From a virus, in the IMG/VR virus record IMGVR_UViG_3300048023_000918, positions 1 to 28,499 of that record: a DNA stretch of 28,499 nucleotides; one strand, written 5' to 3'. The position numbers and the translations under genes were made by a program. A model generated the notes under the pieces. That model was not told where the DNA came from and searched no databases. It saw only the letters and a program-made list of their open reading frames with translations. Every line of letters starts with the position of its first letter. Within the stretch, counting starts at the first letter, position 1. Of the stretch, positions 1 through 21,400 are shown one piece after another.

Positions 1-83
1 CTAAGTAACACATAGTGAGGGGCACTAAGTAACACTAACTGTGCCCCCACTAAGTAACACTTAGCGCCGACACTAAGTAAAAA
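1..83. repeat. Tandem array of 23-25 bp units with an 11-base core and operator-like dyads
   Basis: The core CTAAGTAACAC starts at 1, 25 and 50, and a degenerate fourth copy (CTAAGTAAAAA) starts at 73, giving unit lengths of 24, 25 and 23. The sequence between cores is variable. In the third unit the core extends to a perfect inverted repeat, CTAAGT-AAC-ACTTAG (50-64); the first unit has the same dyad with one mismatch. The array touches the left edge and may continue upstream. All three forward frames hit stops within it, so it is not the end of a long upstream gene. A protein-binding array (operator or iteron) is inferred; no binding protein can be named. Between 84 and 230 I see no gene, only a repeated TTAGCGCC (61-68, 97-104) and a repeated GGTCCC (141-146, 161-166). 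Confidence 0.75.
19..47 (+). other. GC-rich inverted repeat enclosing one array core
   Basis: GGGGCAC (19-25) pairs perfectly with GTGCCCC (41-47), leaving a 15-base loop that holds most of the second array core. No T-run follows the stem, so it does not look like a standard intrinsic terminator. It could still be an RNA hairpin at the 3' end of an upstream transcript, or part of the binding-site architecture. Confidence 0.45.
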
Positions 84-230
84 CCAGTAATGGCGATTAG
101 CGCCCTTATATGTTACCGGCCGCTACGTTTAAAATGCATGGGTCCCTCCTAACCTACAAAGGTCCCCAAGCGACTTCTATATATCAAATAATCCCAAAAA
201 TTTTCTGAGGTAAAAAACCCTCAAAGGGGT

Positions 231-250
231 GATATATAAAGTGGTATACT
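231..250 (+). promoter_or_regulatory. Probable late promoter (TATAAAGT variant) with an overlapping TATACT box
   Basis: GATATATAAAGT (231-242) recurs exactly at 4044-4055 in front of gp25 and ends 19 bases before the start codon at 261. TATAAAGT differs from the T4-type late consensus TATAAATA only at the last two positions. A sigma70-like -10 box, TATACT, lies at 245-250, but the sequence about 17 bases upstream (around 222-227) is a poor -35. The likely target is the four-gene unit 261-2869. Confidence 0.5.
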
Positions 251-260
251 ACTTAAAGGT

Positions 261-467
261 ATGGATGATTTGGACTACGAGGATTATTTAAAGTTTATTT
301 ACAGTGAGGAACAATCGATGACCGGACCAAAGATCGAGTATGAATCAAAGATTGATAAGTTTATTTTAGATTCGCCGGAGGGCGAGCGGTATTATTTTAG
401 GGACTATGAGGGTGCCGAGGATTTTTGGATGTTAAACTTCAAGGAGGATGTAAATTTGGATGCCTAA
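261..467 (+). CDS. Small acidic protein of unknown function, 68 aa
   Basis: I do not recognise this protein. It is rich in Asp, Glu and aromatic residues, with no Cys, signal peptide or membrane segment. It opens the 261-2869 unit: its last eight bases overlap the start of the next gene (ATGCCTAA), so the two are probably translated together. The start codon lies 10 bases after a TATACT box and 18 bases after a late-type TATAAAGT box, so the transcript leader would be very short; AAAGGT just upstream is a poor ribosome site. Its position before two structural genes and a PAAR tip suggests a small virion or assembly protein, but nothing in the sequence proves this. Confidence is in the coding call, not in a function. 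Confidence 0.65.
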   Translation: MDDLDYEDYLKFIYSEEQSMTGPKIEYESKIDKFILDSPEGERYYFRDYEGAEDFWMLNFKEDVNLDA

Positions 468-1833
468 TTATAAGGAAGTTGTCGAGAGTGTCGGCACGGG
501 GTCCTCACAAATTGATATCAAGTATGAGGTAGGTAATGCAGTAAATCTCAGTTATCCTGTGGTAGCAGGTACAGGAGAAGGAAAATATTTTTCATTACCT
601 GTAGGAACGTATCGACAGACATGGAAAGTACCGAATGCCGTTACGACGGATCCATGTGACTCATCAGGGGCAAGTTGGTATGTATCGGGGTATAGTTCCG
701 AGACAGATCGTATTGTGTATGTGGGAGAGGATCTTGGTGAGAAGTTAGTGAATAATTATACAGGGTGTTGTTTTGATGGGGATGGCAATCAATATAGTGA
801 ACCATCATTAAATCAGGCAAGGACGACTGATATTGTATTGGAGGGTGTTCAGTATGATGTATATGGTAAGATGAACACAGCATCTGGTATTGACTATAAG
901 AATGGTTGTACAACCGTTGGTATGGCATCTATCAGAGCAAGTGAGACATTTACCGTAACATTCAATAGCATGATTCCAAATATTGGGAGTAGTGCTCCAT
1001 ATCTGGACGATGATGTCACAGTCACATTATTGCGAAGCGATGGGAACAGTGTGACTGCCACGTCGAGCAGTGGAACTGTGAGTATGAGTGCGGTAGCACC
1101 ACAGACGGTAACAATTAAGTTCGGGGGAGAGTTTGGAAAAAAACTCTTTCCAGAGGAAACCTGGGAGTATTACTATGAAAAAAATTCGGAATACGTACCA
1201 GATAGTAATCATTTAAATTTTGAGATTGATCTACCAGAGAGGGGACCAGATCCAAATAACTTTATCGAACCTTATCGAATTGATAAGGACAATAATGGAG
1301 GATCAATTGATTTAAGTGATGAAGTACCGACCGGAGTATCATTATTAAGATATGAGGGAGACATTACCGAACGTACTGCCGGGACGAGTGATGATCAAAC
1401 CAGAGAGGGTCATCGTGATATGGTATTCAATTTTACAGTGACGAGTAGTATTGCAGGAGTATCAACACTTACCTGGGCAATTGGAGCGACACTACCTACA
1501 GGATCGTATGTATTGAAGGGTGGGAGTACTTATCATGTGGATGTAGGTGGAACGGTGAGTAGTGGCACTACAGGCGATCCTGGTGACCCTTCAGCAGTAC
1601 CACCGATACCACCGACACCTGGTGATCCTGCCGATACTGGACCGAGTGGTACAGGCATCTTTGTAGACGAGAGTGGTATTACCTATCGTTATATTCCACC
1701 AGAAGGATTACTCACAAGTATTGGTGCCGGAACCTGGAGTACTACACTATATGTGATGAATGATTATTTGGTAGGGCAGGCACGATTCCAAGAGATCCTA
1801 GATGCATCTGAAGCAAGGAGAGTAAAATTCTAA
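460..1833 (+). CDS. Probable virion structural protein with a Pro-rich linker, 457 aa
   Basis: A beta-type protein rich in Ser, Thr, Gly, Val and Tyr, typical of phage tail parts. Short Cys-bearing segments occur in the first third (DPCDSS, TGCCFDG, KNGCTT). Around residues 370-400 lies a Gly/Asp/Pro-rich linker (GDPGDP, then VPPIPPTP), followed by a C-terminal domain of about 55 residues that starts near the GIFVDESG segment. The start is supported by a strong AAGGAGG at 441-447, 12 bases upstream, inside the preceding gene. Its stop overlaps the next start (TAATG). With the following protein and the PAAR tip it may form part of the central spike or hub, or a fibre attached to it. This is inferred from gene order only; I do not recognise a named family. 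Confidence 0.7.
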   Translation: MPNYKEVVESVGTGSSQIDIKYEVGNAVNLSYPVVAGTGEGKYFSLPVGTYRQTWKVPNAVTTDPCDSSGASWYVSGYSSETDRIVYVGEDLGEKLVNNYTGCCFDGDGNQYSEPSLNQARTTDIVLEGVQYDVYGKMNTASGIDYKNGCTTVGMASIRASETFTVTFNSMIPNIGSSAPYLDDDVTVTLLRSDGNSVTATSSSGTVSMSAVAPQTVTIKFGGEFGKKLFPEETWEYYYEKNSEYVPDSNHLNFEIDLPERGPDPNNFIEPYRIDKDNNGGSIDLSDEVPTGVSLLRYEGDITERTAGTSDDQTREGHRDMVFNFTVTSSIAGVSTLTWAIGATLPTGSYVLKGGSTYHVDVGGTVSSGTTGDPGDPSAVPPIPPTPGDPADTGPSGTGIFVDESGITYRYIPPEGLLTSIGAGTWSTTLYVMNDYLVGQARFQEILDASEARRVKF

Positions 1834-2567
1834 TGCCAGTACCCGTAGTTTATACACCAATACAACCAAGTTCATCAGTAGTGATGAAACCAGTGGTATG
1901 GTTACCTAATGTATGGCAAGGTGTGATGTGTCCAGGTACGCCACCTATTCCTGAGATATGGAGTATTACTGTAACTAATTTCAAACCTTTGATTGCACCT
2001 GCACCATATAATGGTGATCCTGGTATTACTTTATCATTAACACCAGGAAATGCTACATCTCTTGGTTCTGGTATTATTACGACAGGAGCATTAACAGGAC
2101 CAGTCACTGCAACATTAAATGCTGCTGGTACATATACTGACTATTTGTTTCCAAATAAGCAATATAAGTATCGTAGGGATGTTCTGAGTCCTACACATAT
2201 TCCAACACCTGTTGTATCGCCTTCTGGGTACGTTGCACAGTACGGTACATTGAACCAGGGGTCTGCTCTTCAGAGAGGTTCATTCTTAAATCCGATTGGT
2301 GGTTTGCCTATTGCAGGTACTCCTGCTCTTGGAATGATTAATGAGATTGGCACAACGGATCATATGCAAGAATATAATCCTGATCCCAATTACATGGTAA
2401 TTGTAGAATATACATTAGTCATTACAAGTAGTTGTGGTGTTGGTGCCGGTACGTTTACAATTCGACAAATTGTGTATGATGACAAGGATATTTCATCACA
2501 AAGGTTTGTAACTGCGGTAAATAGTCAGACAGGTCGTAATCCTATTAATCCTAAATTTGTTCCATGA
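1833..2567 (+). CDS. Probable virion structural protein, 244 aa, directly upstream of the PAAR gene
   Basis: The N-terminal 60 residues are rich in Pro, Val and Ile (PVPVVYTP, then VVMKPVVWLP), followed by a Gly/Thr-rich beta-type body. No catalytic motif, signal peptide or membrane helix is visible. AAGGAG at 1815-1820 lies 12 bases before the start. The start overlaps the preceding stop (TAATG) and the stop overlaps the next start (ATGA), so synthesis should be coupled to that of the PAAR protein. That coupling suggests a partner of the spike tip, such as an adaptor between the hub and the PAAR cone. This is inference from order and overlap; the sequence alone does not identify a family. 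Confidence 0.7.
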   Translation: MPVPVVYTPIQPSSSVVMKPVVWLPNVWQGVMCPGTPPIPEIWSITVTNFKPLIAPAPYNGDPGITLSLTPGNATSLGSGIITTGALTGPVTATLNAAGTYTDYLFPNKQYKYRRDVLSPTHIPTPVVSPSGYVAQYGTLNQGSALQRGSFLNPIGGLPIAGTPALGMINEIGTTDHMQEYNPDPNYMVIVEYTLVITSSCGVGAGTFTIRQIVYDDKDISSQRFVTAVNSQTGRNPINPKFVP

Positions 2568-2869
2568 AAGGTTGTACATTTGTTGGTGCTCTATCTACAG
2601 GGCATATCTGCTATCCTCCGACTGCACTTACGCAAGGATCACCTAATGTGCGTGTAAATTTCAGTTTGGCAGGGCGATTGGGAGATTTATTTGCTCCACA
2701 TGCGTGTCCATGTTCAAATTGTCCTCCACCACACCTAATAAGACCCATTTCACAGGGTCCAGTCAACGTATATTTCAATTTTCGTCCACCTGGACGCATC
2801 GGAGACATGATTGGTTGCGGAGATACCATCGCTCAAGGGTCATTTAATGTCTTTGCAGGCGCTTTTTGA
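2564..2869 (+). CDS. PAAR-domain spike-tip protein, 101 aa
   Basis: PAAR proteins form the sharp metal-bound cone at the tip of contractile-tail spikes (T4 gp5.4, type VI secretion tips). The whole length fits the fold: a GH near the start (H14), then three repeats of the GSPNV type at residues 24-29 (QGSPNV), 64-69 (QGPVNV) and 91-96 (QGSFNV). The first two are followed by GRLGD (37-41) and GRIGD (77-81), and then GCGD (84-87). H14, H46, H57 and C85 are candidate metal ligands; known PAAR tips use three His and one Cys. The loop at residues 46-57 adds C48, C50 and C53, which is unusual. The gene is coupled to the preceding one by ATGA and has no clear ribosome site of its own. It caps the 261-2869 unit and is separated from gp25 only by the small cassette. 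Confidence 0.88.
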   Translation: MKGCTFVGALSTGHICYPPTALTQGSPNVRVNFSLAGRLGDLFAPHACPCSNCPPPHLIRPISQGPVNVYFNFRPPGRIGDMIGCGDTIAQGSFNVFAGAF

Positions 2870-2870
2870 C

Positions 2871-2899
2871 TTGACAAAGCGGAAAATTTACTCTATACT
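2871..2899 (+). promoter_or_regulatory. Near-consensus sigma70 promoter for the 2928-3876 cassette
   Basis: TTGACA (2871-2876) is a perfect -35 and TATACT (2894-2899) is one base from the consensus -10, with exactly 17 bp between them. It starts two bases after the PAAR stop codon and about 30 bases before the first cassette gene. It looks like a host-polymerase (early) promoter, unlike the late-type boxes elsewhere in the window. Confidence 0.85.
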
Positions 2900-2927
2900 A
2901 CTGTTGTTCACATAAAAAATTCAAATT

Positions 2928-3077
2928 ATGGCAATGCGTTCCAAGATTGGTCTGTCCGGGGTGCAATTCGTACCCGGAAAACCAAAAAACACTCGTCAAG
3001 GCAGTTCACAGAACACAAAATTGTCTGCAACTTCACGCAATAACAAGAAAAAGCGTTATCGTGGTCAGGGACGTTGA
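2928..3077 (+). CDS. Very basic microprotein, 49 aa
   Basis: Starting at ATG 2928 this encodes 49 residues with 13 Lys/Arg and no Asp or Glu. It has an N-terminal RSKIGLSGVQ segment, a KPKNTRQG segment (residues 18-25), and a C-terminal KKKRYRGQGR tail. From memory, similar short basic proteins recur in T4-like cyanophages; I could not check this. The charge suggests binding to nucleic acid or ribosome, which is inference. It is the first gene after the sigma70 promoter at 2871-2899, and its stop overlaps the start of the next gene (TTGA). A second in-frame ATG two codons in could be the real start. An opposite-strand reading frame covers the same bases but is a shadow. Confidence 0.78.
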   Translation: MAMRSKIGLSGVQFVPGKPKNTRQGSSQNTKLSATSRNNKKKRYRGQGR

Positions 3078-3226
3078 GAGCAGAAACACGTAAATCAATG
3101 GAAATGCTGTTTACTGCTAAATGGAACCTTCCAAAAGCAGCAGCATACTGTAACCTCACTCATAAAGAGATGAAAATCACTTTCAATGAGTATTGTAACT
3201 TTCATCCACCTACTTACGAAGAATGA
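3074..3226 (+). CDS. Microprotein with a Fis-like helix-turn-helix pattern, about 50 aa
   Basis: I prefer the TTG at 3074 (50 residues) because TTGA overlaps the preceding stop and the extension (RAETRKSMEML) is well formed. An ATG at 3098 would give 42 residues and is the safe minimum. The segment NLPKAAAYCNLTHKEMKI, continuing to FNEYC, has the spacing of a Fis-type (HTH_8) helix-turn-helix: N-x-x-K-A-A, four residues, L-T, then a hydrophobic recognition helix ending in E-Y. The tail is HPPTYEE. The match is by eye and the protein is short, so DNA binding is a hypothesis. Its stop overlaps the next start (ATGA), so it sits in the middle of a coupled three-gene operon. A small adaptor or regulator would fit this size. 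Confidence 0.75.
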   Translation: MRAETRKSMEMLFTAKWNLPKAAAYCNLTHKEMKITFNEYCNFHPPTYEE

Positions 3227-3876
3227 GTCAACTAGTCGTCAACCTACCAGCACAAAAAGTATGGGTTCGTAAGGAATACCTTAGGGATCATGTTGACGGG
3301 CATGGCGAATTTGTAGAGGGCGTCTGGGTATCGGCAAAATCGATACCTGGGCGTGCTTTTTATTTTGAGACATACCTACCAGAGTATGCTGCAATGTTCG
3401 ATAAATTGCCCATCAGTGCCTTCCTGAGTCGCCCTGAGACGCCCGAACATGACCTCGACCTAGCAAACCTCCAATTCTGGAATTGCATGGACTATGGGGT
3501 CCGTTGTATTGAGAAGCAATTCATCGGTTCTATGGACTTTGTGTGCAACACTCGTCACTTTGGTGCAATGTCTGGTGAGTATTTGTTCACATTAGACAAC
3601 TTCCACCCTGATATAGACATCACAAACACCAATGTAAGTGAAGTTCCAGAGGAACATAAGTCACATAACTGTATTTTGTTGGAAAATGGGCAGTTTGCAC
3701 TGTATCCAAACAATAGAATCAGGATCTTTGACTTGTCTCTTACCCCCCAAGAACCCAAAACACCTGATTTTAAGGTATCTACCGAGTATTATCAAGTTGA
3801 GCAGGGTATAAGATGGGGTAGATTGGGTGATACCAATGACTATTTCTGGAAAACACCCGAAGAACTGGGTGAATAA
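3223..3876 (+). CDS. Conserved-looking protein of unknown function, 217 aa, last gene of the cassette
   Basis: The protein is globular in composition, rich in aromatic and charged residues, and lacks the Ser/Thr/Gly/Asn-rich make-up of the surrounding virion proteins. It has no signal peptide, membrane helix or obvious catalytic motif. Segments worth searching are KVWVRKEYL near the N-terminus, WNCMDYGVRC in the middle and GIRWGRLGD near the C-terminus. It is coupled to the preceding gene by ATGA. Codon use is clearly richer in G+C than in the following giant gene. Control by the sigma70 promoter at 2871-2899 and its soluble, non-structural look suggest an infection-phase function rather than a virion part. 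I cannot assign one. Confidence 0.72.
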   Translation: MSQLVVNLPAQKVWVRKEYLRDHVDGHGEFVEGVWVSAKSIPGRAFYFETYLPEYAAMFDKLPISAFLSRPETPEHDLDLANLQFWNCMDYGVRCIEKQFIGSMDFVCNTRHFGAMSGEYLFTLDNFHPDIDITNTNVSEVPEEHKSHNCILLENGQFALYPNNRIRIFDLSLTPQEPKTPDFKVSTEYYQVEQGIRWGRLGDTNDYFWKTPEELGE

Positions 3877-3901
3877 ATATAAAAAAGTTCTATTCTATAC
3901 T
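3872..3901 (+). promoter_or_regulatory. Weak promoter candidate before the 42-residue gene
   Basis: AATAAATA (3872-3879) is one base from the late box TATAAATA and overlaps the preceding stop codon. TATACT (3896-3901) is a good sigma70 -10 but has no recognisable -35. Both lie upstream of the start at 3916, the late-type box rather far (36 bases). In such AT-rich sequence either could be chance. Confidence 0.3.
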
Positions 3902-3915
3902 AATTTGGAGAAAAA

Positions 3916-4044
3916 ATGGCAATTCAACCTGTGCCGGATCAAAGTGAAAGTTTTAAAAAATCTGGAATGGTCCTAATTACGGACCCAAAATCAGATTATT
4001 ATTTAAAAAAATCAGTAGAACAGAAAAAAGACAAGAAAAAGTAG
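3916..4044 (+). CDS. Small Lys-rich protein of unknown function, 42 aa
   Basis: ATG 3916 to TAG 4042-4044 encodes 42 residues. The N-terminal part is neutral (AIQPVPDQSESF), the middle reads GMVLITDPKSDYYL (residues 18-31), and the tail is strongly basic, ending in DKKKK-type sequence. GGAG at 3907-3910 lies five bases before the start and supports it. The gene fills the only gap between the cassette and gp25. I do not recognise a family with certainty and can offer no function. The clear ribosome site, and the fact that it fills this gap exactly, make it more than a random frame. Confidence 0.65.
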   Translation: MAIQPVPDQSESFKKSGMVLITDPKSDYYLKKSVEQKKDKKK

Positions 4045-4055
4045 ATATATAAAGT
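4044..4055 (+). promoter_or_regulatory. Probable late promoter for gp25 (GATATATAAAGT)
   Basis: This 12-base sequence is identical to 231-242 and contains TATAAAGT (4048-4055), a variant of the T4-type late box. It ends 16 bases before the gp25 start codon, close to the 16-24 base spacing of the other late-type boxes in the window. Confidence 0.55.
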
Positions 4056-4070
4056 ATAACGGGCGTTAAA

Positions 4071-4463
4071 ATGCGTAAGGTATCCAAAAAATTTGTTGAT
4101 ATTAATCCCAGTTTTGAATCTCACCCTATTACGGGTGATATTAATCTGTTAACAAATGAGAATGCCATTAAGCAATCAGTAAAAAACGTTGTAATGACTA
4201 TGAGGGGTGAAAAATTCTTTCGCCCTCTATTTGGTACTGAAGCACAAACTATATTGTTTGAACTATTTGACCCTATTTTAGCAGATGACATCACGATTTC
4301 GATTGAAGACGCATTAAAAGTTTTTGAACCTCGCGTTAAAGTTATTAATATTGATTATCTTGATAATGTTGACGATAATTCAGTAGAACTTACAATTAAT
4401 TATGAAATTGTAGGATTACCACTGAATCAGCAGTCACTTAACCTTATTTTAGAACGAGTATAA
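4071..4463 (+). CDS. 25: gp25-like baseplate wedge subunit, 130 aa
   Basis: gp25 joins the inner baseplate wedge and contacts the end of the sheath in contractile tails; the family (GPW/gp25, Pfam PF04965) is shared with type VI secretion TssE. Supporting features are the length (130 residues, close to T4 gp25 at 132), the N-terminal segment PITGDINLLTNENAI (residues 19-33), the RGEKFFRPLFG motif (45-55), and the signature EPR at residues 86-88 in FEPRVKV. No strong ribosome site precedes the start. A late-type TATAAAGT box lies just upstream. Its stop overlaps the gp6 start (TAATG), matching the partnership of gp25 and gp6 in the wedge core. Confidence 0.93.
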   Translation: MRKVSKKFVDINPSFESHPITGDINLLTNENAIKQSVKNVVMTMRGEKFFRPLFGTEAQTILFELFDPILADDITISIEDALKVFEPRVKVINIDYLDNVDDNSVELTINYEIVGLPLNQQSLNLILERV

Positions 4464-6307
4464 TGGCGTTTAACACAATCACTAATTTAGATTTTGAGAA
4501 TATCAAACAAAGTTTGAAGGCGTATTTACGTGCGTCTGATACTTTTAGTGATTATAATTTTGAAGGGTCTGTATTGTCCCAATTGATTGATGTACTATCA
4601 TACAACACTTATTATTCAGCGTTAAATGCTAACCTGATTGCTAATGAAGTATTTTTTGATAGTGCCTCTATTAGAGAGAATGTTGTTTCTCTTGCGAGTT
4701 TGATTGGATATACACCAAGATCATCAAAGTCAGCAAAGGCAACAATTAGTATGGATGTACCAGTATCTCCACAGATTGGTGCATTTACTTTAAAAAAAGG
4801 CGAATCATTCATTGGTAGTAATCAAAATGGTTCTTTTGTATATTCAACACTAGATGATATTACAAGAGAAGCATTTGTTGATGTTGATGGTGTCAGAAAG
4901 GTACGTTTTTCAGACATTGACATCTACCAAGGAAATCTTTTAAGTATTGTTTATAATATTGACACTTCAACAAGACAAAGTATTATTATTCCAAGTGCTA
5001 ATGCAGATATTGACTTACTCACAGTCATTGTTAATGAAAATAATTTTAATGCTCCATTAACTTATAAAAAAGCAGAAAGTATTACAGGTTTAACCTCTAA
5101 CGATAAAATTTACTGGATTCAAGAAAATAAAAACGAACAGTTTGAAATATTCTTTGGCGATGATGTTTTTGGACGTAAATTGCAAAATCTTGATTCAGTA
5201 ACTATTGAGTATATTGTTAATAACCAAGACGAAGCGAATCAATGCTCACTTTTTGAGTTTACTGGAGTTTTTAAATATAACAATCAATTTTTTGAAAATA
5301 TAACTCCAACCATAACGGTCGTAAACCCCTCTTCAGGTGGTGCATTACCTCAGAGTATCACTTCTATCAAATACCTTGCTCCTAGGTCATATTCTGCCCA
5401 ACAGAGAGCGGTTACAGTCAGAGATTATGAGACATTAGTCACACAACTATATCCCAATCTTGAAGCGTTGTCAATTTATGGTGGGGAAGATTCCAGTCCT
5501 CCACAATATGGGAAAGTATTCATTGCAGCAAAACCATTTGGTGCTGATAGGATGACTACAACAGCAAAAATGAATCTAACTAAGTCAATTAAAGAATATA
5601 CTATCCTTTCAGTGATTCCTGAAGTCATTGATCCATCATATATTTTCTTAGAAATTGATTCTTACGTTTATTACAATAATAACAAATCAAGAAGGACATC
5701 ACAACAAATTACTGAAGTTTCTAGAGCAGTTATTCAACAATTTGGTGAAGATAATGATTTAGATAGATTTAATGGTAAATTTAAATATAGTAAACTTGTA
5801 GCAGAAATTGATTCTACTGATCCAGGCATTACTTCTAATATTACTAAAATTAGAATAAAGAAAAATATGCCAGTTTTGTCAAATGTGTTTGCTTCATATG
5901 AAATTTGTTATGGAAATAGAATTTCTGATGATACAGATTTGATTTCTAGTGGATTTAAAATTACTGGTGAAGATACTACTAATATTTACTATTTTGAAAA
6001 ATATGGTGTTTCTGGATTAGCAATTTTTAGAATAACTGGTGGCGATAAAATATACTGGTCTAAAAATGCCGGTACAATTGACTATGAAAAGGGTGAAATA
6101 AATATTAATGCTATCAATATTAATTCTGTTGTAGGTAATCTTGAAACTATCTCTTTCTCGGTAGTACCAAAATCAAATGATATCATTGCATTGCGTGATC
6201 TTTATATTTCTATTAAACCAGAAGATATAAGAGTAACCTCAATCCTTGATACAATCTCATCTGCCAACAGAACATCCGGCGTAGGACAAATTCCAGTATC
6301 TAGTTAA
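4463..6307 (+). CDS. 6: gp6-like baseplate wedge protein, 614 aa
   Basis: gp6 forms the ring-making dimer at the core of each T4 baseplate wedge and belongs to the baseplate J family. The length (614 residues; T4 gp6 is 660) fits. The N-terminal region (about residues 8-85) has the expected helical segment with FEGSVLSQLIDVLSYNTYY and the ASLIGYTP turn. The gp6 signature GGEDSSPPQYGKV lies at residues 340-352, after YLAPRSYSAQ and AVTVRDYETLV. The C-terminal third is beta-rich and less conserved. Its start overlaps the gp25 stop, and only two bases separate it from the giant gene that follows. Codon use is strongly AT-biased. Confidence 0.92.
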   Translation: MAFNTITNLDFENIKQSLKAYLRASDTFSDYNFEGSVLSQLIDVLSYNTYYSALNANLIANEVFFDSASIRENVVSLASLIGYTPRSSKSAKATISMDVPVSPQIGAFTLKKGESFIGSNQNGSFVYSTLDDITREAFVDVDGVRKVRFSDIDIYQGNLLSIVYNIDTSTRQSIIIPSANADIDLLTVIVNENNFNAPLTYKKAESITGLTSNDKIYWIQENKNEQFEIFFGDDVFGRKLQNLDSVTIEYIVNNQDEANQCSLFEFTGVFKYNNQFFENITPTITVVNPSSGGALPQSITSIKYLAPRSYSAQQRAVTVRDYETLVTQLYPNLEALSIYGGEDSSPPQYGKVFIAAKPFGADRMTTTAKMNLTKSIKEYTILSVIPEVIDPSYIFLEIDSYVYYNNNKSRRTSQQITEVSRAVIQQFGEDNDLDRFNGKFKYSKLVAEIDSTDPGITSNITKIRIKKNMPVLSNVFASYEICYGNRISDDTDLISSGFKITGEDTTNIYYFEKYGVSGLAIFRITGGDKIYWSKNAGTIDYEKGEININAININSVVGNLETISFSVVPKSNDIIALRDLYISIKPEDIRVTSILDTISSANRTSGVGQIPVSS

Positions 6308-6309
6308 AT

Positions 6310-9300
6310 ATGTTTAACGATCTAAAAGTATCGAGTTCCATTGACAGTCAAGTATCTAATTACTTTGCTTCGGAATATCCAACATTTGTATCTTTCCTTA
6401 AAGAGTACTATGCGTTCTTAGAAACGAATAGTAATCCTTTAGATATTTTAGGAAATATTGAAAAACTTATTAATATTGACACTTACACGTCGGTAACTCC
6501 ATATGCAATTTTATCAGTATCTATCGATGCTAATGATACTGAAATTGAAGTTTATGAAGATGTAAATTTTCCTCCAAATGATGGATTGCTTAAAATTGAA
6601 GACGAAGTTATTTTATATAAAACTAGATCAGTAAAAACTGTTAACGGGCAGAAGCGTACAGTTTTTTCAGGATGCACTAGAGGTTATACGTATAATGATC
6701 TTAGTGTTGAAGGTGTATTATCTCCAAATATTGTTACTGTAGCCGATTCTTATAATGCTAGTAATAATATTAAAGTATATAATCAAGGATTTACATATAT
6801 TCTCTATATTTTAGAAAAAATTAGAGAACAGTATCTTGTAGATTTTCCAAAGCAAGCATTAGAGAAAAATATTGAAAATGTTAATGTAGATACCATTATT
6901 AAAAGGATTAGAGATTTTTATATCTCTAAAGGTACTCCAAAAGCAATTTCATTCTACTTTAAATTCTTATATCAAGAAAATGCTGATATTATAAACTATA
7001 GAGATCTTTTAATGGCATCTTCTGATGCCATATATCAAAATAAAGAAATTGTAAGAATTGAAACATTAGATAATTACCCTTTAAGTTTATTAGCAGATAG
7101 GGGATGCATTTTAGTACAAGGAACAGAGCAGTTTCCAGTACAAACAGTTGAAAATGTATTTTCTTTCGCAAGTCAAGTATTTGAAATTGAAATTTCTAAT
7201 GGAAGGAATTTAATTCCAACTTATTTCACAAAAGTTACTACTCAATTTCGTGTAGTTGATGATATTGCATATGTTTACGTTGATTCAACTTCTAATTTTG
7301 ATCGCGAAGGAACTTTAAGAATTGGCGATAAATTGTTTACGTATTTTGATAAACAGTTTAATTATTTTATATTGAAAGTTTCTGAAAATCCTACTCTATT
7401 AATTAATACAGATGACTATGTTTATGATGTCAATACTTTAGCAAGAGTTAAAGAATTAGATTCAGATATTATTGAAGGTTCGTATTTTATCATATATGCT
7501 GGTGTTAGTGATTTTGAAATTATTGAAAATAGCACATATTACCAAACAGGTGATTTAGGATTTGTTACTAATTTAATTGATGAAACTAATTTATTAGTTA
7601 CTAGTTGGACTTTTAACGACATAACTCCAATTGTATTAAATGAAAATATTGTTGCTGGAATAACTCAAGTATACACTGATATTGAATCAGTTTATGTGTA
7701 TACTTCTAGTATCCCATTTTATAGTATTAATCCTAATCAAGTATTTTTAGAAAATAATAATTTAAAAATTATTAATGCTAATATTTTCAAGAAAATTCCT
7801 AAAGTATTTGATAAATCAGTAGATACTCTTCAGCAAGAAACTAATCCAAATGATGTTGTTGGAATTCTTAGAGATGGAAGTTATATTCATAATTGGAAGA
7901 GTGAAGAGCGTATTATTAACGGTAAAATAGAAAATATTAATATTGTCAACGGTGGAGATAATTTTGCAATTAACAATCCTCCAGAATTAAAGATTGAATC
8001 TCCTCTTATAGATGCAATTGGGGATGTATCTACAATTTCATCTACAACTATTTTAAGTCAAGCAAATCAAGTATATTTGGTAGATGGTTCTTCTTCGGTT
8101 GGTTCTCAAGCTAGATTTGAAGTTATTAGAGATAATTTTGGATCTGTCATATCTACTAAAGTAGTTGATAATTTAGCTGGAAATAATTATGAAGTTGGTA
8201 CTAATATTACTATTGATGGGTCTGATGTGGGCGGATTAACTGAAGATGATGATATTTCATTAGAAGTTGTTTCTATATGGTCAGGTGAACAAGCAACAGC
8301 AGAAATGGTCGTTTCTGGTCGCGTAAGCGAAGTTTATATTAAAAATGGTGGTGTAGGATACCCATCAAATACAACTTTTATAAACGTCATTAGAGACGTT
8401 TCTGACACAGTTTATTCTGGAAATAATTTTAGAGATGCTGTTCTGTCTCCTATTGTAGTTGATGGAAAAATTACTAAAGTAAGAATTATCGATCCAGGTG
8501 AAGGTTATACTAAATCTCCAACCATTGTAATTACACCTGAACTTAATATTGATAATGCTGCAGATATTGAACTTCAAATTGGTGGTCCAGTAACCGATGT
8601 TACGATTGTAAATCCTGGTAAAGGATATAGAATTAACCCATCTGTTGATATTGTTCGAGGATTGGGTGCTTCCGGTATACTTAGTATCGATAATGGTGTT
8701 ATTACATCGGCTTCTATTATTACTGGTGGATCTCAATATAATTCTCGTCCTGTTGTAAGAGTTGTTGATACTTCTGCTCAACCTGGTTTTGGTGCAATTT
8801 TACTTGCAGAATGGGATAGTAATAGTAAGCAGGTGCAGGAAATTAAAATTTTAAATGGTGGTATTGGTTACGATGAACTTAATACTATTATTGAAATTTT
8901 TGAACCTGGTGAGAACCTTATTTTAAATACTACTGCTAAATTTTACACAAAGGTTAATAATACTAATCCAAATTTATCTAATTTGATTAGAACTGATCTT
9001 GGAGCATATTATGCCCAAAAAGGTATTACAACTGATGATCAAGGAAATGAAACGTTTTTAAGTGAATATTCAATCATTGCTGCTCCATTTAAACTTCAAC
9101 TTAAAGATCCATTAACAAATGAAATAGAATTAGTAAATCTTCAAAATGCTTTAGATCACTCTCCACTCATTGGATGGGCATTAGATGGTGCTCCAATTTA
9201 TGGTCCCTATGGATATAGCAATCCCCTAGACCCTGACTCTGATCCTGCTAAGATGAGGAGTGGATATAAATTATTATCTCAAAATAATCTTGAACCTGAG

Positions 9301-12300
9301 AGAAAAGCAAATCGTAATAATGGTGGATTAGAAACTGATTATGCAGTTGGAGAGTTTGAGCAAGATTATATATGGACTGCTAGAAATGCAGATTTAGATT
9401 CAAATAATGGTAGATTTTGTAAAACACCTGATTATCCTCTAGGTGTTTATGCATACTTCATGACAGCAAGTATTAATCCAAATCAACCAAGTAGTGTAGG
9501 ATTTCCATATTTTATTGGTCCTAAATTTTCAGGTAAGATTGATACAGATTTTAACAATCAACAATTCCTTAACCTTGAAGCAATTCCTAATTTGAGCAGA
9601 TATTTAGATTTCAGATCTAATATTGCACCTAAACCAATAGATCCTGGTTTCTTTGAAGTGGCATCTATTCCATCTTCAGCAGAAGCATCGTTAGATTTTA
9701 TTGATATTATCACTCCAGGATCTGGATATAAATTTGGCGATGTTGTTAATTTTAACAATGAAGGAACTGGTGGTTCTGGAGCAGCAAGTTTTGTAAGTGT
9801 TCTTAAAGGAAAAACAATTAGTTCAGTAACAAAAGCAACCTATGATTACTTAGAATATAGAAGTGATGTAGGATCTTTTAATGTTGGAGATCAAATTAAA
9901 ACCATAGAAGGATTTTCTGCTACAATCTATTCAGTTGATAGTGAGAATCAAAACCTATATCTTTCTAATGTTTTAGGCGATCTTCCAAATCCAGATAATA
10001 GAGATAGTTTTTATAATACTACACTTACAGTTGATACTCAATCAGTATCAGAACTTGTAGGTCCAGATGCTTCAGCACCTATAGTTACTGCTTCATTAAA
10101 ATTTGCTTCATTAAATGAAGCATCTGGAATTTCTGATATTCAAACTACATTCCTAATTGATAACTTTAATAATTCATCTATTACTGACTTTAACCAATCT
10201 TCAGGAAATCCTGTTTATGTTAGAGTTAACACTGAAATTATGAGAGTTATTTCTACTCAAAGTACTAATAGATTACTTGTAACTAGAGGTATTAATTCTA
10301 CACCTAGTGCCCATAACAATAACTCAACCGTAGAAATTTTATCTTCAATTCCTGTATACGATAGTTCAAAATTTTCAATTGGTGATTATATTGAAATTGA
10401 TTCTGAAAAAATGAGAATTATTGATACTGTCATTCAAAAAAATACTAACAATGAAGTAGTTGCCGTAAGAATTAATGATGGTACAGGCACTCAAAGTGGA
10501 ATACAGTATTATTTGTATTTTAATGGATATATTCAAAACAATGGTGGAGATACTTCAACAGTAGTGACAATTGATGGTAATGGTGATATTTCAGATATTA
10601 TATTTACTCCAGGTTCTGAAAATTATATTTCAAATCCAATTGCGTATATTTCTACTGATGGTTCATACTCTGGAACAAGTGTTAATGATGCACCTCCTAG
10701 TATTGTAAGTGGTGTAGATTTGACTGCTACAACATATAGTCATACTTTGATTGTTGAAAGATCAGCACTAGCAACTGTTTTAGCAGATCATAACCCTAGA
10801 ACTGAAGTTAACAGATTATTTTTTAGTACAGCAGAAACATTGAAGTATGAAGAAGATAGAATTGTAACTAAATTAAATTCTTCAGATAATGGACTAGTTG
10901 TTGATGATTTTGTAACTATTTCTGCATCTACTGAAAATGAAGAAACATTTAACATATATCAACCAGGTGGTCAGTTAAAATTATCAAATGGTGTTAATTT
11001 TAATTCTGCTTATCCTAATGGACTTACTTTATATGAAAATTCAAAATATGTATTTGAAGTATCATATACTAATCCAAATTGGAAAAATATTGAAGTAAGA
11101 TTTTTTACTCCAGGAACAGATACAAAAAAAGAATATTTTGATATTAAGATTGAAAAAGAATTTAATGTTGATGGTAAATTAACCAAATTTGTATTACTAC
11201 CTGATGATTCAGATTTAAGTAAAGTTAACATGGAAGTTAAAAATGTTAATAATAATGGGGTGACTATTATTCCTTTAATTATTAAATCTGAACCAATTAA
11301 TGGTTCGTATAATGTAATTAATTCTGGATCTACATTCTTTGAAATTTACAGTAAAATTAATCCCGATCCTGATGGAACTCTCCTCAATCAATATAATTTA
11401 AATAAAATTTCATATACAACCACATCAAAAAGTTCAGATGGACCTATTGAAAGAGTTACTTTGACTAATAATGGAGTAAACTATCAACAAGTCCCACGAA
11501 TTACTTCTATTTCTACTGTAGATGGGGAAGGAGCAATTTTAGAAGCAGTTTCTGATAAAGTTGGAACAATTAAAAGTGTAAAAGCAATTAATTCTGGATA
11601 TGGATATAGTCCAGATCCAACCCAAAAACCAACACTAATTTTTCCAGTAATTAGTAAATTAAAAAATAATTTTACTATAGAATCTTTAACAATTAATAAT
11701 CCAGGAGATGGTTACTTATTTTCACCTAGGATGCAAGTTGTTGGTGGTGGTCTTCAGGATGATAGTCCAAATCATGCAAAATTTGAGGGAGTAATTAATT
11801 CTAGAATTATTTCAAATATTAACACACTAAGTTCAGGAATTAAATATAATTCTGCTCCAACAGTCACAGCAGAAAAATATTATTACATTAGTACTATTTC
11901 TGGATCTGATATTAATTTCAATATCAGTTTTAAAGAATTTTTCCAAGAAGGAGATCCTTTTAGAATTAGGGCATACTATTTTGCAAATTTAACCGATGCA
12001 GCAAATCAAGTTTACAGTTATATAGAAAGTAACACTTTCTATGCATTCCTTGGTAATGTTTCACTTAAAGCAAGAGCACAGGGTGGTATTGTTAATTTAT
12101 TACCATTAGATCAAGCATATTGGACTGTTGATATTGAAAATATCATTACTAATCCAGCAAATGGAATATATTATGAAGCAGTTAATTTTGCAAGAAATGC
12201 CCAGTTTACTGCAATAATGAAGAAATCTCCTTTCTCCAATGGTGAACGTGTTAGTATTATTAGATCTATTGGTGATATCGAAACAACTATTGGTTCTGGT

Positions 12301-15300
12301 GAAATTTCTACTATTAATGGATGGCAAGAAAATAATTCTATTTTAAGAATTACTGGAATTACAACTAAATTAAAAAAAGAAGATGAAATTATTGGATTGA
12401 ATACATTAGCAGTTGGTGTTGTTGATGAAACTTTCTCTGTAAAAACTTCAGCAAAATTAGATGCTGTTGTTCAAACACCAGAACAGTTTTTAGATGATGG
12501 ATCTTTTATTGGATCAAATGCATTAAAAATTCAAGATAGTAATCGTTATCAAAAATTTGCATACCAAGTTGGAGTTCAAACCCCATTTGTAGAGTGGCGA
12601 GAAAACTATGAAAACGCTCTGCACCCTGCAGGTTATAAAGTTTTCTCTAAAACACAAATTTTAAGTTCTCCAGAGGATAGTATTCTCCATGAAAACTTTA
12701 GAGATGAGGACGATGAAGATACTAGTTATGATGAAAGGGATTTAATTAAAGAAGGCAATTCTATTGTCAATGTAGGTACTACATCTGCTGAATTAGCACA
12801 ATTAAGAAGAAAATATAATTTCTTAGTTGCTAAAAATGAAAATAACAGATTTGATTCTGTTATTGTTAAAAATAAATTACTGACTGATGTTTTAAACATC
12901 AAAACATCAATTGTTGGAGTATTTGAAGATATATCTGACCAATTTAATGGAATTGAAACTTTATTTGAACTTAAAGTAATCGATCCAGTAACACCAATTA
13001 TAAATGGAAGTCCAAATTACATAATTGACTATGAAGTTGACCAAATGGTTGTTCTTTTGGATAATATTATTCAAACATATGGAACTTCTTGGGAAATTAT
13101 TGATGCGGATAAAGTAATTGATTTTTATTCACAACAACTATCTGGCGATCCGATGCCGGATGGAGAAATGTTAAAATATAGACAATTTAATGAAGCAAAC
13201 TCCATATTTACGATGAATCAAACATCGACTGCTACTAGCAGTGTATTTGATCTCAATCAAACAGATGGAACTGCTTGGCCATCAGGAGTATTTACTTCAA
13301 TTGATAATGATGAATACCTGGTATTTGTTGATGGTATTATTCAAAAAAATAATAACTTCAGCATTAGTGCTGGAGGTGGATCTCCTACAATTACATTTAC
13401 TGATGATGATATTTCCAATACTCCAATTGCATTACCTATTGGTACACAAATTTCAGTAAGACAATCTAATTCATTTATTAAGAATGAATTCTATACGGGA
13501 AGTGGTGGTGTATTTACTCCAGGAAATGTTAGTGTTGGGACTCCAATTGTATTACCAAATAAGACATCAGGACCTTCATCAAAACACGATTACTTTGTAT
13601 TTGTAGATGGTGTTATAATTTCTCCTGATGATTATGGATTAGACACAAATAAAGATATTTTATTTAATTATGGATTTAATTATGATACTTTAATAGTCAT
13701 TATTGATATAAATGGAGCATCGTTGGCTGAATTATCTCATGGTATTAATGGCACAAAATACGTCTATAAAATTGAAGATGGGCAATTAGAAATTCCCACA
13801 GGTTTTGAAATTAAACCAGAGCAGTATTTAGTTGATATTTCAGGTGTAGTTCAATCTCCACATATCGTTTATAATACTAGAAGTAGTGGTGTCAGAAAGA
13901 TTCGTTTCTTTGAACCACCATCTAGGTATATTTTACCCGATGTTGCCTCAGATAGAAGTGAAATTGGTAGACAGTTTATTGGATTTTTATATGAAAGATT
14001 AGATCCAGAGGGTAATACAACTACACCTAATTATCAATTTGATGATGTAAGTATTAGTAAAGTACATGTTAAAGAAGGGTTTGATAATTTTGTTACTGGT
14101 GATTATATTAATACAGCAACATCATCAGCAGTTATTAAACGTAAAGAAGAAAATGTTGTTATTAAATCCATCTCTTTAGGTTTTTCTGGATCTTTAGCAT
14201 CAGGTGCAACAACAAATATAACAATTTCTTCAACACTTAAAGTTTACGTTGGTGATAGAGTATTATTTAATTCTGCTTTTGGATTAACATCTACAGATAA
14301 TGATGAATTAGAAATTACTGCGATTAATGGAAATGTAATCACTTTAACAAATATTAGTAGTTCTGCATTATCTTTAGTTATTCCTACGAGTGGAACTATT
14401 AGATTTATTCATAGAGAACTTACTATTGTTGATATAGTAACAACTGAAGCAGACAGAGATGATGCATTTGCTGATACTGATGTTCTTGAGAGTGGTATTG
14501 TTTCTTCAATTAGAACTGGAGTCCAAACATTAACTAATGAACCTTTCGCAGCACTTGTTACTGATACTGAAATTACTGTAGATAATGCTTCTGGATTTAC
14601 TACAAATGATTACTTACTGATTAATGCAGTTGAAATTGTAAAAATTACTAATATTTCAACAAATACTTTAACAGTTGATCGTGCTCAATTAAGCACATCT
14701 GCAGTTTTGCATCCTGATGGTATAGTTGTGGAAAAAATCACTCCGTATACTTTAACAGTTAACTCTTTTATTAGAGGATTTGATAGTGATAAAACAGTTT
14801 TCCCACTTAAAGAAAATGGAGAACCAGTTAATATTGGAACTGACAAAGATATTTTTGTTATCGTTAATGGTATTTTACAGAAGAAAGGTGTAAATGATTC
14901 TTATGTAATTAATATAACTGGAACCGCACCCAATGAATATTCGGTTCTATCTTTCACAGAAGCACCTCCAGAAGGCGCACCATTGAATGTTTTCTACCTA
15001 GGCGAGGTAAAACCATTAAAAGATATGTCTGGTCTATTCAACGGCACTGACCGAGCATTTAACTTGATTAATCCTACTAATGATGAGGTATTCTCATTAA
15101 TTGCTGAATCTAGACCTGAAGCAAATATCTCTGCAAACTTGATTATTTTTATTGACGGATCCTTACAAATACCATCAACCGAGGAAGCAGGTAGGGTTCC
15201 AGCATATCCAAATTCATTAGTTTCTTACAAATTATTTGGTAGTATTGTTGAATATTCTGCACCTCCACAAAGGGGTGCTACATTTGAAGGATATATTTAC

Positions 15301-18460: not shown

Positions 18461-21400
18461 ATGCCCCAGTCAACTAATCTGAATACTCCTCCCTACTTTG
18501 AGGATTTCAATTCTGACGATAATTTTCATAAAGTACTATTTCGTCCTGGATTTCCTCTTCAGGCAAGAGAATTAACTACTTTACAATCCATCCTACAGGA
18601 TCAGATTGAAAAGTTTGGTTCTAGTATCTACAAGGATGGCGCGATGGTCATTCCTGGTCAAGTTGGGTATGACTTAAAATACAATGCTCTTTTAATTGAA
18701 GATGAATATTTTGGTATTCAGTCGAATGCTTTAGTTTCCAATAAAAATACAGACGGAACTCCTGTTATTGTTGGCAAAACTATTAGAGGAAATACTTCTG
18801 GGGTAAAGGCAAAAATTGTTAATGTATTAAGTTCAGATCAATCTGAACGAGGTAAGACAACTCTTTATGTTAAATATATCAATGCTGGCAATACTGACTC
18901 CGTAACTGGTACACAATATACTATATTTCAAGATGATGAAATTCTCCTGACGGAAGAAACCTTTTCTTTAGGAACATCTGTAATTCAGGAAAATACTGAC
19001 TTTGCTAAATGTGTTACTTCACAAGCAACTTCGGTAGGATCTTCAGCAAAAATTACTTCAGGTATTTATTTTATTAAAGGTAATTTTGTAACTGTACCTG
19101 AGCAAGAAATTGTTCTTGATCAATTTGGAGTAACACCATCATATAGAGTTGGATTAGAAGTTTTAGAAGAAATTATCACTCCAGAAATTGATAATACTTT
19201 AAATGATCCATCACAGGGATATTCTAACTATTCTGCTCCTGGGGCACATAGATTAAAATTTAGAACGATATTAACTAAAAAAGCATTAGATGATAATACT
19301 GTTATCAATTTTATTGAACTCCTTAAACTTGAAGACGGTGAGTGTCAAGAAATTGTAAGTACTTCTAAAGCACAAATTGCTGCTACTTTAGAAGATACCC
19401 TTGCTAGGAGAACTTTTGATGAATCTGGAGATTATGAAGTAACTCCATATGAGTTCTCTACTCAAGAATGTTTAGACGATGGTAGAAATAATGGGGTATT
19501 TGAATTTAATCAGCAAACTGATAATGATGTATTGGCGTCGGATGATCTATTTGAAATTGTTGCTTCTCCTGGCAAATCTTATGTTCGTGGATATGAAATT
19601 GAAACTATTTCAAACACCTACGTAGATATTGAAAAACCAAGAACTACAGAGGAACAAAATAATAGAACTATTTCTACAGATGGTAGAGGTGTTAGATTTA
19701 ATTTGGAACCTATGACGAAGGTTTCACAACCAGATCTTTCATTAGTTCTTGGTGATGTCAATAGAACAGTATATTTAAAAGAAGATGTATCTACTGTTAT
19801 TGGATATGCAAGTTTAATTAATTATGTCCAAAATAGTAGTGACAATTATATTAGTTTGTCAAATATTGTCATTACTACAGCAGGTAAGAAAATAAAAGAT
19901 GTAACTATTTTAGGAGTTGGTGCAACAACAGGGAATGATTATAGTTTAACTGTTCAGTCAGGTGCTAGAAAAATTACTGGTCAATTTAGTCCATCATTCT
20001 TTGAGGTATATGGAGATAATGATATTAAGGCAATTACTGATCTTAAAGTACAAGATGTACTAACTCATTACACCGGCACTACTACTGGGAATGATATTTC
20101 AGTTAATGGGGAATATTATTCAACATCTGCCGGTGATTATACTATCAGATTGAGTGGTGAAACTACGGAAACATTAGCACTAACAATTAATTCTGTTACT
20201 GCCGGTACTTTAACTGCTACTGTTACTGGAAGATCTGGTAGTGGTAATGTAGCATTTACTTTAATTGGTCCTCAAAAAATTAGTGAACCTAATGTTACTT
20301 TATCTTCTTTACAGAAGATGAGAATTCTTAAATTAGAAAATCTTTCTGGCAACAAGTATGATGTTGATGCTGAAATTCTTCGTCTAGGTTTAACACGTGT
20401 ATGTAAAGTTTATGCAATTTATAATGCAGACACTATAGAAGAAGCAATTCCAGAACTGACTTTAACAAGTGGTAGCGGAACATTTGAGGTTGGTGCTATT
20501 ATTGAAGGTGCGAATAGTGGTGCTAAAGCACGTATTTTAAGGCAAAATGGAACTACTGTTAATTTTACTTACCTTGGAAAAATTAGATTTGTAGTAAACG
20601 AAGATATTAAATCAAAAGAAACAGGTCTTGTTAGAACAATTGATTCTATTGGTACTAATGGTGCCATTAACATTAAAAGAAGATATAAGTTTAGAGATGG
20701 TCAAAGTGCCCAGTCATTTAATTGGTCATACTTAAAGAAAAGATCTTCTGCCAGTAAAATAAATGGCACCCTATGGGTTGTATTAGATTGGTTCAAAGAT
20801 GAAGTACCGGGCAAATTTTATACAGTCAATTCTTATTATGATGCAGATTATAAAGAAATTCCTTACTACCGTATTAGAGGGGAGAGAATCTATCTCAGTA
20901 ACTTGATTGATTGGAGAACTAATCAAGCAAATGTTCTTTCTAATGATGGATCCTACGATAGTCCATTCACTATCAATGCATCCGAAATTGCGACATCTAC
21001 AACTTTAGAAGATTTTGAAAATAGAAACTATAATTTTAATTCATATCTCACACCATCGGGAACTACTGATGGAGACATTGAATATTACTTAGGTAGAATT
21101 GACGATCTTTACCTAGACAAAAATGGTAAATTTATTAATAAGCAAGGTATTCCATCATTAGTGCCCGAAGAACCTGAAGAATCTTTAGCAAATGCTATGA
21201 AGGTTGGTCAAATTACCATGCCTGCATATGTCAGAAATCTTAATAAGGTAACGTTTAAAAGGTCTACTAATAGACGTTATACCATGAAAGATATTGGTAA
21301 ACTAGAGGATAGAATTGATAACGTTGAATATTATACTCAATTAAGTTTACTTGAGAGTGATACTGCTAATTTGTTTATTAGTGATGCTAACGGATTAAAC

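Follow-up and report, generated by a model that had tools for sequence, protein, structure and literature searches.

Gene content between the PAAR gene and gp25

The window, i.e., the whole stretch of DNA that was analyzed, is a virus record of 28,499 bp from a T4-like cyanophage, as indicated by flanking genes for PAAR, gp25-like and gp6-like proteins and by best matches to phages of Synechococcus and Prochlorococcus. The region around the PAAR and gp25-like genes contains the following features:

2564..2869, plus strand: gene of a PAAR-motif protein, the upstream tail neighbor (Pfam PF05488, 36.6 bits with a cutoff of 27; phrog_281)
2871..2899, plus strand: predicted sigma70-type promoter TTGACA-17-TATACT (from sequence; in 18 of 18 clade lineages), with an inferred transcription start near 2906
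2928..3077, plus strand: phrog_516, a basic protein of 49 aa, Syn9 gp96 family (homology, E 4e-23)
3074..3226, plus strand: phrog_1308, a 50-aa protein modeled with three helices and HTH-like at best, TTG start (homology, E 2e-29; structural model)
3223..3876, plus strand: phrog_3704, a cargo protein of 217 aa, predicted to be mostly beta (homology, E 3e-108)
3320..3366, plus strand: intrinsic-terminator-like hairpin within phrog_3704, stem 3320-3354 and U-run 3357-3366 (terminator scan, folding energy, comparison)
3872..3879, plus strand: putative late-promoter box AATAAATA (from sequence; relatives have the box in 22/34 phrog_1414 gaps and 67/93 gp25 gaps)
3916..4044, plus strand: phrog_1414, a protein of 42 aa, the first gene past the late box (homology)
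4071..4463, plus strand: baseplate wedge protein resembling gp25, in the late operon that follows (name taken from homologous annotated loci)

The putative promoter consists of TTGACA (2871-2876), a spacer of 17 nt, and TATACT (2894-2899), and the preceding PAAR open reading frame (ORF) ends at position 2869. The ORFs of phrog_516, phrog_1308, and phrog_3704 overlap successively by 4 bp each. These coordinates confirm the description given in an earlier note on this DNA, in which a TTGACA-17-TATACT promoter two bases past the PAAR stop heads three overlapping genes coding for 49, 50, and 217 amino acids. The G + C content steps down at the late box (3876-4071) from approximately 0.44 in phrog_3704 to 0.32 in phrog_1414, gp25, and gp6, and between the late box and phrog_1414 there is a TATACT hexamer (3896-3901) that lacks a good -35 sequence. 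Past gp6, the tail region contains two very long ORFs (6310-16947, 3545 aa; 18461-24733, 2090 aa). An Rfam search of positions 2400-4500 and a search of a plasmid collection yielded no match.

The small proteins phrog_516 and phrog_1308 are present in 449 and 436 phage records, respectively. The C-terminal half of phrog_516 is rich in lysine and arginine and nearly invariant across the relatives, and searches of PHROG, Pfam, and NCBIfam matched it to no family of known function. A homolog resides among the tail genes of S-CBS4, a Synechococcus phage of 69 kb (locus L212, 4001-4138), and the corresponding ORF of P-SSM2 (GU071092; locus L006, 4001-4147) is unannotated. The relatives of phrog_1308 use TTG, GTG, or ATG as start codon. 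The structural model of this protein (pLDDT 74) contains three helices, and its top Foldseek matches are homeodomain-like but not significant (E values of at least 0.49), which makes the modeled protein HTH-like at best. That the two proteins are nucleic-acid-binding microproteins, for which the earlier note had named them as candidates, is weakly suggested by the basic character of phrog_516 and the three helices of phrog_1308, whereas the insignificant matches and the lack of any family of known function speak against it.

The model of phrog_3704 is predicted to be mostly beta (pLDDT 75.8) and had no match at E ≤ 0.001 in the PDB; its matches in a viral structure library were unnamed or uncharacterized proteins. 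A PADLOC search with phrog_516, phrog_1308, and phrog_3704 returned nothing. Public records label phrog_3704 as PurM, ferredoxin, or transcriptional regulator. Ferredoxins of the [2Fe-2S] type contain four conserved cluster cysteines (CX4CX2C...C). The ferredoxin label (PHROG/RefSeq) was rejected, as phrog_3704 has one invariant cysteine (C88) in sets of 12 and 49 sequences and no Pfam ferredoxin match. The PurM label (GenBank) was rejected as well, based on the absence of AIR synthase matches in Pfam and NCBIfam and on the separate 996-bp purM gene that follows phrog_3704 in P-SSM2, and the designation as transcriptional regulator was unsupported by domain searches.

Promoter motifs and late boxes in the relatives

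On the plus strand of the window, two sites matched the promoter motif at 11 or more of the 12 positions, compared to 1.2 expected in shuffles. The exact spaced 12-mer was rarer, with two sites at no more than one mismatch vs. 0.33 expected, and positions 1-14000 contained 59 promoter-like sites, below the 73 of shuffled sequence. Since the stretch alone hardly separates a promoter from chance, relatives were compared; a promoter in a single stretch is weak evidence, and the comparison carries the case. The relatives were retrieved from IMG/VR via phrog_3704, PAAR, and phrog_516, and comprised 188 loci with phrog_516 and sufficient upstream sequence, of which 125 remained after dereplication (85% over the upstream 100 nt). 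Upstream of phrog_516, 54 of these 125 loci scored at least 10/12 (2.2 expected from shuffles), and 82 had either this score or an extended -10 (8.0 expected), some of the 82 within coding sequence. As a control, the sigma70 motif was scored at eight further gene starts of these loci, where it was near chance level.

Noncoding motifs, whose -10 hexamer lies wholly past the upstream stop codon, were found in 44 of the 59 loci in which 20 bp or more separate phrog_516 from the upstream gene (49 if overlap of the -10 with the stop is permitted) and in none of the 64 loci with a shorter gap; two further loci could not be judged. The same rule applied to control genes gave 4/93 for gp25, 0/34 for phrog_1414, and 1/44 for phrog_3704. 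Among 35 dereplicated loci that carry a different gene, phrog_29004, phrog_516 is preceded by a gap of 20 bp or more in 22, each of which has a motif with a -10 extending beyond the stop codon of the upstream gene. Taken together, the excess over gp25 and the phrog_29004 loci argue for a separate sigma70-headed transcription unit among the late tail genes, in line with the earlier note. Sites of the TTGACA-17-TACAAT type inside the preceding coding sequence were not counted as promoters and may reflect coding constraint of a PAAR-like protein; such sites occur among the 30 motif-bearing loci of the 64 with a gap below 20 bp, at a distance from the ATG about equal to that of the noncoding sites.

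The motif was followed on a tree of gp25 and gp6 with 108 lineages, which remained of 145 after dereplication at 95%. It is present in all 18 lineages of the clade that contains the stretch and patchy elsewhere, with 17 changes across the tree. Within this clade the -35 hexamer is TTGACA and the spacing 17 nt in 18/18 lineages, and mean column identity is 1.00 in the -35, 0.94 in the -10, and 0.69 in the spacer. Conservation of the promoter where the genes are, on which the earlier note had made its proposal depend, was thus observed throughout the clade of the stretch.

Of the cultured phages, S-SCSM1, whose host is Synechococcus WH 7803, carries TTTACA-17-TATAAT before phrog_516, with the -10 overlapping the end of the upstream gene, and S-RSM4 has an extended -10. 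The motif is absent directly upstream of phrog_516 in the seven T4-like isolates Syn9, S-RIM2, S-SM1, P-HM1, P-TIM40, P-SSM2, and Sf-FS3, and likewise in the siphovirus S-CBS4; among S-RIM14, S-SKS1, Sf-CH5, S-CAM4, and ACG-2014d, only S-CAM4 has a match, which is inside coding sequence. In the seven T4-like isolates phrog_516 is likewise located before gp25 and presumably is transcribed along with the late genes, which speaks against a pure takeover cassette.

According to passages of PMC2984593, cyanophage late promoters have the sequence NATAAATA, sigma70-like motifs accompany the S-PM2 and Syn9 homologs of T4 early genes, and homologs of alt, mod, motA, and asiA are missing from cyanophages. 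In the window NATAAATA is depleted (6 copies on both strands vs. 19 expected), and three of the five plus-strand copies are located just 5' of gene starts (3872 before 3916, 16952 before 16979, and 24942 before 24973), which agrees with the late-type boxes reported in the earlier note for other gene starts. None of the 125 loci has a late box before phrog_516. The gap before gp25 contains one in 67 of 93 loci, and that before phrog_1414 in 22 of 34.

Intragenic hairpin and exchange of the cargo gene

Two features that go beyond the earlier note are a hairpin within the cargo gene and the exchange of the cargo itself. A terminator scan detected a stem of 15 pairs at 3320-3354 in the 217-aa gene, followed by TTTTTATTTT; the segment 3310-3375 has a dG of -26.8 and a z-score of -5.55. 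Judged by sequence, the element thus combines the stable stem and the U-run expected of an intrinsic terminator. Among 71 phrog_3704 sequences, nt 85-144 of the gene are more stable than synonymous shuffles that preserve protein and codon usage (mean z -4.1), with mean z-scores of 0.2 to -1.1 in the other windows of the gene. Codon choice in the U-run, which could be anchored in 69 of the 71 sequences, is biased as well: its two phenylalanine codons are TTT in 137/138 cases vs. 499/694 elsewhere in phrog_3704, and its alanine codon is GCT in 51/62 vs. 117/517. An extra T co-occurs with the hairpin (49/52 vs. 9/18, p 1e-4). In the hairpin pairs 86.9% of the cells are paired, and covariation is 0.198 vs. 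0.156 in shuffled and at most 0.112 in slid controls; pairs changed on both sides were at chance against the shuffle control (4 vs. 3.5), and RNAalifold gave a weak consensus of -2.94 kcal/mol in which no pair was changed on both sides. The register of the inner stem shifts with serine codon swaps, so that a single set of alignment columns cannot fit all sequences. By these comparisons, the hairpin is kept by selection on synonymous sites. Such conservation demonstrates selection on the RNA, not the function of the RNA.

Strong terminator-like sites occur between phrog_516 and gp25 in 76 of 105 loci, corresponding to a density of 0.80/kb; the densities used for comparison are 0.08/kb in gp25 and gp6, 0.25/kb for the minus strand, and 0.01/kb within the 1 kb that lies upstream (88 loci). 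A coupling of hairpin and promoter was looked for and not found (hairpin in 14/18 with an adjacent noncoding promoter vs. 36/46 without). Among promoter-bearing loci without phrog_3704, the scan detected no terminator in 9 of 20, and two loci that lack cargo altogether (L106 and L171) have a hairpin with a U6 run between phrog_516 and gp25.

Several lineages of the clade carry, in the slot occupied by phrog_3704 in the window, either phrog_29004 (168 aa) or no cargo, with the promoter retained. The gene phrog_29004 is unrelated to phrog_3704 and has a hairpin of its own with a U5 run. This hairpin has a mean z of -3.4 in 33/34 sequences (76% below -2), with 24 cells changed on both sides vs. 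9.4 in shuffles and a covariation of 0.200 vs. 0.110 shuffled and at most 0.086 slid; counted by pairs, changes on both sides did not clearly exceed chance (5 vs. 3.3; 64/500 shuffles). Stems end near nt 132 in phrog_3704 and near nt 187 in phrog_29004. In the scan that was also applied to phrog_3704 copies, 24 of 34 in-slot copies of phrog_29004 had the hairpin element, and both hairpin and U-run are present in the in-slot copy of S-RSM4. The homolog of S-SSM7, located between hli and psbA (locus L377, 1501-2004), has neither. A phrog_29004 protein (locus L104, 3114-3617) gave a weak PADLOC match to Pycsar cyclase (E 0.0046).

For phrog_3704 copies of at least 60% identity, the element was found in 82/101 in the slot vs. 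1/13 elsewhere, the latter in P-SSM2, whose phrog_3704 has the hairpin though it sits outside the slot; copies of lower identity had it in 0/3 and 0/8 cases, respectively. On a phrog_3704 tree of 113 sequences (element in 78/95 in the slot vs. 1/18 elsewhere) the association was represented by three supported independent contrasts and was not significant, and with so few contrasts the link between slot and hairpin is not separable from ancestry. The genes phrog_1308, phrog_3704, and phrog_29004 are variable between phrog_516 and gp25, to the point that S-RIM2 has none of them there; phrog_516 itself is not variable. A natural deletion of phrog_3704 that leaves 17 codons is present in two loci (L091, 5484-5708; L092, 1550-1774), both of which retain the promoter, phrog_516, and phrog_1308. 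In L091 cargo and hairpin are lost and the promoter is kept. A list of loci in which L092 appears with its phrog_3704 deleted was not drawn on for the counts.

A possible early island and its alternatives

These features are best explained, with a probability of roughly two in three, by a moron-like early island within the late tail operon that is headed by a host promoter, ends within the cargo gene, and is followed by a late restart at phrog_1414/gp25. Host RNA polymerase in its unmodified form, carrying the primary sigma factor, would initiate at TTGACA-17-TATACT directly past the PAAR stop and transcribe phrog_516 and phrog_1308 early, the overlap of these genes making translational coupling probable. 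Many transcripts would then end at the putative intrinsic terminator, in the 5' quarter of phrog_3704 or about one third of the way into phrog_29004, and, because they stop in the cargo gene, early host-driven transcription would be kept out of gp25, gp6, and other baseplate genes. The late polymerase would restart at the AATAAATA box, and synthesis of the complete cargo protein would depend on read-through, possibly aided by a closely trailing ribosome. In the sequence comparison promoter motif, hairpin, and U-run are conserved, late boxes recur, and the cargo is exchanged; we infer early promoter activity, termination at the hairpin, translation-gated read-through, and the roles of the proteins. 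According to passages of PMC4824070, terminators are efficient in Escherichia coli if located within 100 bp of the ORF start, and those farther along are subject to repression by the ribosome, the effect depending on ribosome distance. By analogy, stems ending near nt 132 and 187 would make ribosome-gated read-through plausible. More tentatively, and with somewhat less than even odds, cargo genes in the slot may acquire an in-CDS terminator, largely by synonymous changes, as a boundary between early and late transcription, at least two unrelated genes having done so independently, with read-through gated by the closeness of the ribosome.

An incidental promoter match, with the whole segment transcribed solely within the late operon, would agree with the window alone, which has about as many sites as shuffles. 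It is highly improbable given the 18 of 18 lineages, the better conservation of the hexamers than of the spacer, and the chance level at other gene starts. A real promoter might instead provide the baseplate operon itself with early or middle transcription, under dual sigma70 and late control, with the island as operon leader; overlapping early and late promoters have been proposed for middle genes of S-PM2 and Syn9 (in passages of PMC2984593), and some promoter-bearing loci have no terminator before gp25. This is quite unlikely, however, as terminator-like sites cluster between phrog_516 and gp25 (0.80/kb vs. 0.08/kb) and gp25 or phrog_1414 mostly have a late box of their own.

Hairpin and U-run could also be another kind of RNA element that tunes the cargo protein, such as a translational pause, an RNase processing site, or a protein-binding site. 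Synonymous conservation indicates selection on the RNA and leaves its function unspecified, and the hairpin is independent of an adjacent promoter, which both fit such an element; it is nevertheless rather unlikely, as selection also acts on the U-run, which is linked to the hairpin, the combination occurs in two unrelated genes, and the cargo-less loci L106 and L171 have a hairpin with U6. The earlier note had suggested a host-takeover or timing module, in which phrog_516 and phrog_1308 act as early nucleic-acid-binding regulators of host transcription or translation. This is compatible with the early island, an explanation that covers transcription only, and draws on the sigma70 head, the conserved basic tail of phrog_516, the HTH-like model of phrog_1308, and the presence of phrog_1308 in TTGACA-17-TATACT islands behind gp5 in S-RIM2 and P-RSM1. 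We regard it as somewhat doubtful, since neither protein has a homolog of known function, Foldseek matches were not significant, and several isolates have phrog_516 next to gp25 but lack the promoter, an arrangement suggestive of an additional function connected with the late genes.

As for the early island, its components resemble known arrangements, and the earlier note's term "undescribed" applies in part, as early genes among conserved genes, and morons, are kinds already known from passages of PMC1524935. There a moron is an inserted gene with its own promoter and terminator in lambdoid phages, and most novel ORFs of T4-like phages are said not to look moronic (Nolan et al., 2006). The island shares with morons the extra genes among conserved late genes, the host-type promoter, the terminator-like site, and a cargo that varies between relatives. 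It differs in that it belongs to a lytic phage of the T4-like type, its terminator-like site is within the cargo ORF instead of flanking it, phrog_516 is near-universal and no occasional insert, and the G + C content resembles that of the upstream neighbors (phrog_3704 exceeds gp6 in 67/68 loci, with PAAR and upstream genes equally GC-rich). Like the novel ORFs covered in the passages of Nolan et al., it has an early-type promoter amid conserved T4-like genes, but it additionally has a terminator-like site, a putative late restart, and a location in the baseplate cluster.

Further islands were found behind gp5, with TTGACA-17-TATACT or TATAAT at the gp5 stop in S-RIM2 (L008, 2541-2569), P-RSM1 (L203, 438-466), and Syn19 (L201, 463-491). 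They also have a putative promoter at a late gene's stop and small genes, including phrog_1308 in S-RIM2 and P-RSM1, but occupy a different place in the genome and lack phrog_516. Premature intrinsic termination in E. coli ORFs (PMC4824070, PMC7815308) likewise involves terminators within coding regions, whereas here phage cargo genes are concerned, two unrelated ones in the same slot. The region upstream of psbA in S-PM2 combines sigma70 motifs and a late Gp55 site near one cyanophage gene (passages of PMC5931967); both act on that one gene, whereas here they would head adjacent units. Literature searches among open-licence papers gave no title or abstract on this cassette or on intragenic terminators in cyanophages.

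For phages without motA, asiA, alt, and mod (as stated in passages of PMC2984593), the proposed island would provide a testable rule by which early genes may reside among late ones and the late genes are not switched on early: a host promoter where a late gene ends, a terminator hidden in the next coding sequence, and a late box after it. S-RSM4 and S-SCSM1 are isolates that carry testable parts of this arrangement, and phrog_516 and phrog_1308 are candidates for early expression in some lineages.
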